Assembly (NCBI GenBank): GCA_009760885.1
Contig: CM019715.1
Location: 24,889,642 to 24,953,641, forward strand
Length of the DNA: 64,000 nucleotides
Direction of reading: 5' to 3'
Source: Achatina immaculata
Lineage: Eukaryota; Mollusca; Gastropoda; Stylommatophora; Achatinidae
A model generated the notes under the pieces. The model saw nothing but the letters and a program-made list of their open reading frames with translations, did not search any database and was not told where the DNA came from. Within the stretch, counting starts at the first letter, position 1. Each line of letters opens with the position of its first letter. The position numbers and the translations under genes are program-made. Shown in pieces: positions 1,834 to 60,336 of the stretch.

Positions 1834-56616
<54,783 letters not shown>

Positions 56617-57401
56617 GTAATTCTTGGTTTTTTCTTTTCACACATCTCAGAAAATTTGCATCTCCTAGTTGATGTGTGTTTAAATAGACATTACTAGTTG
56701 TGTGATATTCAGGATCTTGAATTGATTGTCATCAGTGACAAGAACCAACTGGAAACATTTTTCGTTTTTTTTGACAGATGACTTTTCATATGGAAGTTAA
56801 CTTATTCCCCTCAGGGAAAAAAAACACAGGCGTTACGTTCGTACAGGCAAACATTACATTATCGAGCAGGTGTTGTGATATTTTTTGGGTCCCTCTCTAA
56901 AATTAATTTTAACAAACTAAATCTGCGTTCAAAATAAGTGTATCACATATCAAAATAGGTGGAATTGAATGAGGATTTCGTAAATGTAGTTATTTGTCAA
57001 AGAAAGAGAACTGGTGAGAAAAAATTGAAAAGTTGAGCACAAAAAAAGAATTTTTATTTTGGACTGAGAAAAAAAAATTATGTTCTACTTACCCTCAGTC
57101 TGAATATATTCCAAGTGAATATAAATCTAACTTCGGCACATTTTGTTGTGAAATCCATATGAATTACATCTAATATACATTATATCTCTTTTCAGCAAAA
57201 AAAAAAAAAATTATGACACACAAATAAAATTGTTTTCTACTTACTATCAGAGCTGTAAATATCAACTAGAAAAATGCAATATGAAGATAAAAGGAATTCC
57301 TCACATGAAATGTAAAAACTGGAGAAATTTTCAGAACTACAAACACAAACACAACAGAAAACATTCAGAACTCGATTTGCAGATCAACCAAATGCAACTG
57401 C

Positions 57402-57630
57402 CATTTTGGAAAATTTGAGTGGCCCTGAAAAGGGCTGTTACAGGGCCGAAGGCTCCTCTTTCCTGAGCAATTGCCATTTTGAAAATTTGGGTGGCCCTCA
57501 AAAGGGCCATTACAGGGCTGCTGTTGGCTGGAATGAAGGCTCCTCTTTCCTAAGCAGTTGCTAATCTTGACAATGTGGGTGGCCCTCAAAAGGGCCATTA
57601 CAGGGCTGCTGTTGGCTGGGGTGAAGGCTA
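57402..57630 (-). promoter_or_regulatory. Three tandem histone-type 3' stem-loops
   Basis: On minus: GGCCCTTTTGAGGGCC at 57596-57581 and again at 57508-57493, each followed by ACCCA; a third, AGCCCTTTTCAGGGCC, at 57436-57421 is followed by ACTCA. Each is a 6-bp (third: 5-bp) stem with a 4-nt U-rich loop, the size and sequence of the metazoan histone mRNA stem-loop. Downstream of the first two is AGGAAAGAGGAGCC, containing AAAGAG like the U7-binding element, about 30 nt beyond the stem. Repeat spacing is 88 and 72 bp. They lie about 400 nt past the piggyBac stop codon, on the same strand. No histone gene is adjacent. Function is inferred. Confidence 0.7.
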
Positions 57631-57689
57631 AAAAATTATATACATGAAAAATGAAAAAAAATATTATACACAGAATATATGTACAACAC

Positions 57690-57900
57690 ATGAACACTGT
57701 ACATCACACTGTCATCTACTGTCTCCAGTCCAAGTAATAGTATAAAACTGTCAGTATGTGGTCTGTACACAATATGTCATATTTACATGATAAAAAAAGT
57801 ATACAAAAAAATTAGCTGTCAATATATACAATACAGGTACAACAACACTAGTCTTCTGCTGTCTCCAGTCAAGGAATCAGTCACCTACAGAATAAAAATG
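57690..57900. repeat. Two diverged copies of a unit of about 130 bp
   Basis: CTACTGTCTCCAGTCCAAGT (near 57717) and CTGCTGTCTCCAGTCAAGGA (near 57857), with similar flanks, lie between the transposase stop and the stem-loop repeats. Confidence 0.55.
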
Positions 57901-59744
57901 GTCAGGTTAGACAGAGATGTCAAGGGTGGCTCAGACAGTAAAATGTAGAAAGCACAGGCAAATGAAGTATTTGTGCTAGAATGCAGTGGTATCATGCTCA
58001 GTATGACTCATGATACTCCTTGAAACATTTCTTTGGACACAGATGAGGTCTGTCTGAGCACTTAGTGCTGTAGTAATAGGTGCGGACTATTTTGTCTGCC
58101 TCTATCAGTATAAACACTGTTTACGAGAATCTTTCATGTCAGTCAATGAGCACCTTGGTGGTATTCTGAGACAGGAGGATGTGCTACTGCTCCCGTTTGC
58201 CTGGGAGCAGTATACTAACTTCTGGAATGAAGCTGCTTTCTGCCAAGGATACCAAACCTTCAGTAAGCTGGTTCTTGAAGAAAGCAAATATAAAGTGTGA
58301 GCATTCACCTGTGTTATTTCAAAAATCCAGTTGAATATTTTCTTCCACCACTTTACTTTCTAGAATTCATACCATAGTATGAAACTTTTTGGTCAGCTCT
58401 GTCACATCCATTCATACACATATTATATGTGTGAATGATCTCTGGTTTCTGGACTTCTTGCTGTCCTTCGATAAGAGGAACAGTGACAGCTTTTCCATGT
58501 GTTATAACCACATGAACAGGCTTCTTTGACTTTTTGTTTGTCCAGGAAACCATCATCTTTGACATGGTAACAGGCTTTTTTTCCTAAAGTCTTCAGCTGC
58601 AGAGAAAAGCCCTTGCGATTGATATTTAAGGTCCCAGTGTAATTGTGGCCTTTCGACAGAGATAATCAACCAGAGGAAGACTGGTATAATACCTGTCTGC
58701 AGATATATGATGAGAAGCACTGGCTGCAAAAGTGTCTGAAAAACATTCACAGTTGACTTGGACTGTCATTAGTGGCAGGGTCACAGGAGGTTTTCTTCCC
58801 AAAAAATATCAGCAGGTTAAACACGTAACCTATCTTGGAGTCACAAAGGCCGTAGGTCTTGATGTGGCTTCTTGCTAGCATTATATTGTTTGTGACTCCA
58901 GCGTCCCTTGTAGCCAGTTACCATTTCATCAATACTTATGTCTTTGAAAGGGTAAAAGGCTGCCTGAAAAGATGCCAGCAGCTGATTGACAAAAGGTAAT
59001 TTGGCTTTACCTTCACTATCAGCTTCACCAACATGCAGCATAGTGCTGTATATCATCAGAAACTGATCCCTAGTAAACATTGCCTAAAAAATGGTGTATG
59101 CAGATGGCCTATGGTGATCCAGTAGTCACTGATTTTCGGTTTAGGTTGCATGCTCATTGGAAGTGATTGTGGCCATGAACGTAACACATTTCATGGCAGC
59201 CAATAGGTGTCCATGCAGAATCATTACTACCATCACCTGCTTGGCTAAGTTTCATATGAGCATAAACATTTATGCTGGCTATGAGGCTGTCCAAAATATC
59301 TATTGTGAACAGTGCAAGGAAAAACCCCAGTGGTGTCCGGTCATTGTCAGCATCTAACAGAATACTACTGCCAGCATTATTGCTGCTAGGAGTTCCTAGC
59401 TCTTCATTCATCTGTGCTTCTTTCCAGTTCGAAACTGGATTTTTATTTGCTCTCTGAGCTGCAGAAACACTAGTTCTAGGTCGTTTCACAGGTGGAGGAC
59501 TTATCCTGCTATTCGGTTCAGCAAGAACTAGAACTAGTTGAAGTCCAGCTGTCAGAGTCACTTTCACTATCACTATCCCCGTCACTTTCACCATCATTAT
59601 CAGCAGAACTACAGATTCACTAGAAGTAACTACTTGTTCATCCTCGTCAGAACTTGATTATGTCCTTTCTGTCACCTATAATCTTAAATAAATTCAAAGC
59701 TGCCTTTGCACTATCTCTAACAGGCCTACCACTACCTGAATATG

Positions 59745-60125
59745 TAGCATTTACATTCAAAGATATTTATGTGTTACTCAGCTGTTTTGTTAAGTGTCCA
59801 GGTCTCACAGGCATATATTGCAATGGGAAAGATGTATGCTGTTAAAAATCTTATTTTTGTAGTTCTGTCTGTTCCTCTCCACACATTCTTTAGTTGTTTT
59901 ACTTTCTGAAGAGCGATAGGTGTCCTTCTTTTAATTTCCCTCATTGTATTTCCATTATTAATATTGATCCAAGATATTCAGAACTCTCAAGTTCTTCCAA
60001 TTTTTCCTCATTGATACATATTTCAGCTGCCTTATTTGTTTTGTTGGTTGTCATCACTTTAGTTTTCTTTGCACCCAGAAAGTTCATAGAGGTTTTGCTC
60101 TGCACTTTTCTTACAGACTGACATA
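59745..60125 (-). mobile_element. LINE-A fragment
   Basis: Minus strand from the AEKHI region back to the SVRK codons; contains KVMTTNKTNKAAEICINEEK and EELESSEYLGS (59941-60132). Truncated on both sides. Confidence 0.85.
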
Positions 60126-60336
60126 AGTACATGTCATAAAATGCTACATATACTCAGTATTCTTTTATACTATAGAAGCCTGGACCTTGAATAAAACAGC
60201 AGAAAAGAGAATTGAGGCAGTTGTAACCGCAACTAATCGGAAACTGGCAACGTCACACTCAAGGCATTGCCATATGTGCTCCACCTTTCATTAGAAAAGG
60301 GATGGCGACTGCAGTAAAACTGGTTTAAATAAAAAA

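Follow-up and report, generated by a model that had tools for sequence, protein, structure and literature searches.

Three hairpins on the minus strand of a 64-kb stretch of Achatina immaculata DNA (hereafter the window) resemble the 3' ends of replication-dependent histone mRNAs, and they lie behind the remains of a piggyBac transposase gene. The locus raises the question of where such hairpins came from and whether a transposon could be using them to end its own message. To our knowledge, 3' ends of the histone type occur almost exclusively on histone genes.

Stem-loops in a dead piggyBac element

The features of the window that bear on this question are given in Table 1. The three minus-strand hairpins (spacing 88 and 72) and the two purine elements described in the initial annotation were present where it had placed them, and each hairpin departed from consensus in the single place that it had reported, namely a G in the loop of two hairpins and the closing pair of the other. 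The annotation had overlooked a third downstream element (CTGCAAATCGAGTTCTG...) past the last hairpin, in which GAGTTC lies 47 nt past the stem. The Rfam histone stem-loop model (RF00032) matched all three hairpins with E-values of 3.7e-5 (31.6 bits), 2.3e-4 (29.5 bits) and 0.11 (22.4 bits) when the 64-kb window was searched against all 4227 Rfam families. All three matches were under the gathering score of the model, which is 34. The two better matches are far from chance, and the 22.4-bit match is weak when taken by itself. A fourth match in the window (positions 30586-30628, 18.4 bits, E-value 3.3) looks like chance.

The hairpins lie 3' of the transposase in a dead, minus-strand piggyBac element that occupies the window from about 56797 to 59741. 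Its left end is cut off by an interspersed repeat that we read as a LINE, going by its translation; a Pfam search with one frame of this repeat gave no match. The right terminal repeat is degenerate, and homology to other copies stops at 56796-56798 in several of them. Two of the four transposase frames in the window matched the Pfam family DDE_Tnp_1_7, at 20.9 and 22.1 bits against a cut-off of 22.4, and the transposase can be called piggyBac because the copies found elsewhere in the genome secure the relation.

Two other features of the window were noted. On the plus strand beyond the right end of the element, at a distance of about 180 bp, a stretch at about 56427-56612 matched a COPA/B TPR domain at 29.7 bits (cut-off 33), and the element therefore probably lies within an intron of a gene with that domain. 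At the other end of the window, positions 258-551 and 804-1281 comprise the start of an 18S rRNA gene (rRNA on the minus strand; 154.7 bits, model positions 4-605) together with an adjacent 107-bp tandem repeat (2.8 copies). Ordinary repeat-rich DNA comes next, and the fragment is a stray piece of ribosomal DNA.

Table 1. Features of the piggyBac element and its hairpin block, in window positions.
Feature	Position	Strand	Basis
Stem-loop 1 (GGCCCTTTTGAGGGCC)	57581..57596	-	Rfam, 29.5 bits
Stem-loop 2 (GGCCCTTTTGAGGGCC)	57493..57508	-	Rfam, 31.6 bits
Stem-loop 3 (AGCCCTTTTCAGGGCC), last of the array; canonical loop, mismatched closing pair	57421..57436	-	Rfam, 22.4 bits
Captured H4 3' UTR preceding stem-loop 1	57598..57628	-	Homology of block to H4
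Captured H4 3' UTR preceding stem-loop 2	57510..57540	-	Sequence
Captured H4 3' UTR, shortened piece, preceding stem-loop 3	57438..57453	-	Sequence
Purine element, unit 1 (GGAAAGAGGAG)	57540..57550	-	Family position of AAAGAG
Purine element, unit 2 (GGAAAGAGGAG)	57453..57463	-	Sequence
Downstream element after last stem-loop (CTGCAAATCGAGTTCTGAATGTTTTC)	57357..57382	-	Place as in host core histone genes
Remains of piggyBac transposase gene, broken frame; approximate limits	58000..59741	-	Sequence, homology to copies
Right end of element: TTAA and degenerate terminal repeat	56797..56813	-	Homology with other copies
Interspersed repeat truncating the 5' side of the element	59741..60129		Recurs elsewhere in window

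A family of elements with hairpin arrays

Searching the whole genome (1.65 Gb) with RF00032 gave 75 scored matches among 269,756 candidates, and the sequence was examined at all 45 loci that contain them. At 44 of the 45 loci (74 of the 75 matches) the hairpin lay in the 3' part of an element of this piggyBac family or a relative of it, sense-oriented and at a constant place 3' of the transposase, which was itself recognisable within the examined stretch at 41 loci. The sole match outside the family (L070, 20.9 bits) is unrelated. Thirty of the 75 matches reached the gathering score, as did none in 14 prokaryote control genomes, every one of which contained weak matches under the cut-off. The concern that the covariance score might be at background holds for the window copy only in that it falls below the Rfam cut-off; its score is above background, and the cut-off is reached by those 30 matches elsewhere.

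Full-length copies reveal the plan of the element. L041 (3.1 kb) consists of TTAA, CTCTTTCCACCCG, the transposase gene, about 280 nt, the hairpins, about 640 nt, the right repeat and TTAA, and the termini of such full copies read TTAA-CTCTTTCCACCCG ... CGGGTGGAAAGAG-TTAA. Copies with an open transposase frame do carry the hairpins, as the initial annotation's reading implied; the frame was open in four examined copies (L039, L040, L045 and L048), with a length of 617 aa in L045. When the L045 frame was used as query, 108 proteins were found, listed with PF13843; the nearest named ones are PGBD4-like proteins of the gastropods Elysia, Candidula, Biomphalaria, Aplysia and Plakobranchus, and bryozoan and crab proteins are also among the relatives listed. 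Judged by these transposase relatives, the host is a heterobranch gastropod. The element shares with the piggyBac superfamily the DDE_Tnp_1_7 transposase, TTAA targets, 13-bp terminal repeats and a left-end palindrome at bp 17-32, but differs from it in that its 3' part is replaced by a predicted histone terminator.

In its predominant form the block is an 88-bp tandem cassette that comprises a stem-loop and a downstream purine element. Elements at the 39 family loci contained 1 to 11 hairpins, usually spaced 88 bp apart; the spacing was 23-24 bp in the divergent copies L062, L066, L067 and L068. Loci L001-L070 and L083-L087 were selected by Rfam score, so these counts are biased to good stem-loops, and the fuzzy matches in L037 (at 464) and L038 (at 4183) were left out of them together with L070. 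One locus, L039 (G000:C2:69372500-69380500), contains a tandem pair of main-clade elements, of which the second is missing its left part; each carries four perfect hairpins.

The family form of the hairpin is AAC GGCCCT UUUC AGGGCC A[C/U]CCA, with the 6-bp stem, UUUC-type loop and ACC-type flank of a histone 3' end, and the perfect 16-mer was present in 91 of 126 hairpins at the 39 loci. All 23 hairpins of the four open-frame copies were perfect, compared with 68 of 103 in the other copies. A GAGTT-type motif follows the last hairpin at 38 of the 39 element loci (at 43 nt in 28), and GAGTTC begins 44-48 nt past the stem in the four core histone genes of the host. The initial annotation had considered the purine element to be farther from the stem than usual; this distance is normal for the core histone genes of the host. 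A report on clam histone genes likewise describes purine elements farther from the hairpin (PMC6210712). Within the arrays, 69 of the 75 internal units had AAAGAG 32 nt past the stem, so that every unit is a full cassette with both a stem-loop and a downstream element. A search of the host genome for U7 RNA gave a best candidate of 28.7 bits (cut-off 34), which is doubtful, the same search being weakly positive in 12 of 14 prokaryote controls. If histone-type processing does occur, the 5' end of host U7 is predicted to be complementary to GCAAAAGAGTTC.

Descent from histone H4 and distribution over clades

The histone genes of the host form tandem repeats, one of which (L080, 7.3 kb) contains H4, H3, H2A and H2B; a typed fragment used as query did not find H1 in L080. 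From the stop codon onward, the 3' flank of host H4 reads TAAGAACCTTCACCCCAGTCAACAGCAGCTCTTTAACGGCCCTTTTCAGGGCC, followed by the downstream element and CTGAATGTTTTCT. This flank aligned to the transposon block in 10 of 10 copies tested with scores of 81-155 compared with shuffle maxima of 24-33 (50 shuffles each). The homology extends over roughly 60-150 nt; the best alignment (L065) runs from the stop codon to well past the downstream element, and that of L062 covers 58 nt only. In 9 of 9 copies tested, H4 scored 95-147 and the other core histones 21-72, which rules out H3, H2A or H2B as the source. The highest scores other than those of H4 (67-72) were obtained for H2B with L048 and L041, whose downstream element is alike. 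L068 also retains, in a somewhat damaged state, the last 17 codons of H4 and its stop codon, which scored 68 compared with at most 25 in 500 shuffles, and six other copies tested showed no H4 coding relic (scores 18-28). The H4 coding DNA in L068, together with a downstream motif common to H4, H2B, H3 and H2A, shows that the sequence moved from histone gene to transposon, and the reverse direction, in which H4 would have acquired its end from the transposon, is ruled out. A blastn comparison of six elements with L080 gave no sign that a promoter or anything else in the histone repeat had been captured as well.

These alignments and the relic in L068 bear out the initial annotation's idea of a captured histone signal, and comparison with the histone genes of the host placed its homology at the 3' end of H4. 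The block almost certainly descends from that 3' end, from the stop codon through the stem-loop and downstream element. A chance resemblance or an unrelated satellite would be in keeping with window scores under the gathering score and with the weak matches, none over the cut-off, in all 14 controls, but it is refuted by the length of the H4 homology and by the coding relic, and the family-wide place behind the transposase speaks against it as well; its probability is negligible. The stem-loops of host H4 genes are themselves no better matches to RF00032 than those of the elements, as H4 flanks scored 23-32 bits in six of nine cases and gave no match in the other three.

Two further observations concern the H4 sequences and the borders of the block. 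Runs of C occur in or behind the 3' arm of several host H4 stem-loops (L074-L079) and represent either real variation or sequencing error. In L065-L067, a GAGGAATTCCATTTACCATCA-like motif is present both before and behind the captured block and is perhaps a trace of the capture event.

A search with the transposase C-terminus gave 150 scored matches among 775 candidates, and the 3' flanks of 14 of the 150 (L088-L101), none among the RF00032 matches, served as a sample chosen by transposase. The clade 2 and 3 members of this sample were picked mainly for long open frames, and a clade here is a range of amino-acid identity to a single 136-residue query, not a branch of a tree. All five sampled main-clade copies had hairpin arrays (650 bp each), which, together with the 74 of 75 scored matches, ties the unit to the transposase and sets aside the free satellite that the initial annotation had entertained. 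In 900-bp flanks, none of four clade 2 copies (70-73% amino-acid identity) had the block, an AATAAA or an ATTAAA, and none of three clade 3a copies (61-62%) had the block; the first AATAAA of the latter three is 280, 435 and 289 nt into the flank. Both clade 3b copies (56 and 58%) had H4-like hairpins, with alignment scores of 65 and 84 compared with shuffle maxima of 34 and 29. RF00032 matched only the five main-clade flanks among the 14 and neither of those from clade 3b.

Clade 2 matches the main-clade 3' UTR (84-85%) up to the start of the array, and similarity resumes 380-440 nt later. Past the downstream element, the main clade and L065-L068 agree at 86-89% over 111-133 aligned nt compared with 74-77% for the transposase, percentages that come from local alignments of short pieces. 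The block of the main clade has its closest counterpart in the most divergent group, and nearer relatives are without it (0 of 7), which suggests exchange, losses or repeated capture. We read the patchy distribution as exchange of 3' ends between lineages, with losses or repeated capture as alternatives. Some clade 2 and 3a relatives have long open frames and no cassette, so the cassette is not needed by every relative, and clade 2, with neither the block nor AATAAA or ATTAAA, manages without either visible signal.

A predicted histone-type terminator

The initial annotation's identification of the hairpins is upheld: they are stem-loops of the histone type, accompanied by a U7-type downstream element, in the 3' part of the main-clade transposase gene. 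A piggyBac lineage has almost certainly taken the 3' end of a replication-dependent H4 gene of its host (the end of the coding region, the 3' UTR, the stem-loop, the U7-type downstream element and a further few tens of nucleotides), which came to lie past the transposase gene. The stem-loop and downstream element then became, in the main clade, the 88-bp cassette, which was tandemly repeated and spread with the element. As the most likely function, we propose that the block is the terminator of the transposase gene. SLBP would bind the stem-loop, U7 snRNP would pair with the downstream element and the pre-mRNA would be cut between the two, leaving a transposase mRNA that ends without poly(A) and favoring S-phase expression. 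We consider it fairly probable that the captured block is used as a histone-type terminator because of its orientation and place, its host-like spacing, the perfect hairpins of the open-frame copies, its amplification as whole cassettes and the AATAAA of clade 3a.

A rather unlikely alternative is that capture of the H4 3' end was accidental, for instance as gap-repair filler, and that the block is merely carried and amplified by an element whose mRNA is polyadenylated elsewhere. In favor of such a passenger, the captured UTR that precedes the stem-loop is preserved to about the same degree as the stem-loop itself, whose conservation between clades (21-23 of 26 positions) does not exceed that of its captured UTR surroundings (mostly 25-26 of 29). 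Among 73 units from 30 loci, variation per column was 1.8% in the 16-nt hairpin, 13.4% in the 33 nt before it and 2.8% in the 29 nt after it, and because of this last value the hairpin is not singled out for conservation. Tandem repeats can grow without selection, and there are relatives that lack the block (present in 0 of 7). AATAAA and ATTAAA were absent from all 11 main-clade 3' regions, but about 1 was expected and the chance of none is about 0.35; we discarded this absence as proof of poly(A)-less ends because it is not significant, and the AATAAA of clade 3a is therefore weak evidence too. A mere passenger fits poorly, however, with whole cassettes at near-constant spacing, with the perfection of all 23 units in the four open-frame copies and with the presence of the block in two distant clades.

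Covariation was also discarded as proof of RNA function. The compensatory changes that the initial annotation had looked to were found in one element copy (L053), which has a compensated pair, but the remaining covariation was contributed by host genes. The alignment comprised 27 of 42 true distinct hairpin forms, the window form and four host forms; its value of 92.2% paired is flattering, given that among the omitted forms are three with a broken stem (GGCCCTTTTCAGCTCC and similar ones). The lack of excess stem-loop conservation, covariation in L053 only and a clade 2 without both signals are against terminator use or neutral.

The hairpins might instead act as DNA, providing extra binding sites for the cysteine-rich domain of the transposase, which we regard as improbable. 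In all 12 left ends examined, bp 17-32 form a palindrome that reads GGACCC-TACA-GGGGCC or nearly so, and the DNA of the stem-loop has the same 6-4-6 palindromic form and shares 10 of 16 letters with it. The left-end palindrome coincides with the site at bp 17-33 that a CRD dimer binds in T. ni piggyBac, according to a report on that element (PMC7351741). The array, however, is separated from the right terminal repeat by about 640 nt, no such palindrome was found nearer to that repeat in L041, and the non-palindromic downstream element, the spacing and the H4 descent would be left unexplained. The left-end palindrome of L041, a main-clade copy, is at oriented positions 1487-1502 and resembles histone stem-loop DNA.

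Use as a terminator remains the reading that we prefer, and it can be set beside known systems. The block resembles a metazoan replication-dependent histone 3' end in its 6-bp stem, 4-nt UUU-N loop, ACC or similar flank, downstream purine element and H4 descent; unlike one, it stands behind a transposase, mostly as a tandem array of complete cassettes, and is a putative signal. Pack-MULEs and Helitrons are DNA transposons that capture pieces of host genes, and here too a host gene piece is carried and multiplied by a transposon. Unlike in those elements, the piece is an RNA 3'-end signal at the terminator place of an otherwise complete autonomous element, amplified as a cassette. We know of no other piggyBac element with a histone terminator, and no description of a transposon with a histone stem-loop was among the papers listed by a literature search. 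It is about as likely as not that this is the first known case of a mobile element whose mRNA is ended by captured histone 3'-end machinery, with poly(A)-less, S-phase-limited messages and a cassette passed between lineages in replacement of poly(A) signals.

If a transposon has indeed taken over a histone end, the signal would prove to be a module open to capture and reuse. Expression of the transposase would be tied to DNA replication, and its mRNA would be hidden from poly(A)-selected RNA sequencing. Natural variation within the family, in repeat number, in clades with and without the cassette and in a clade with AATAAA, makes the terminator idea directly testable.
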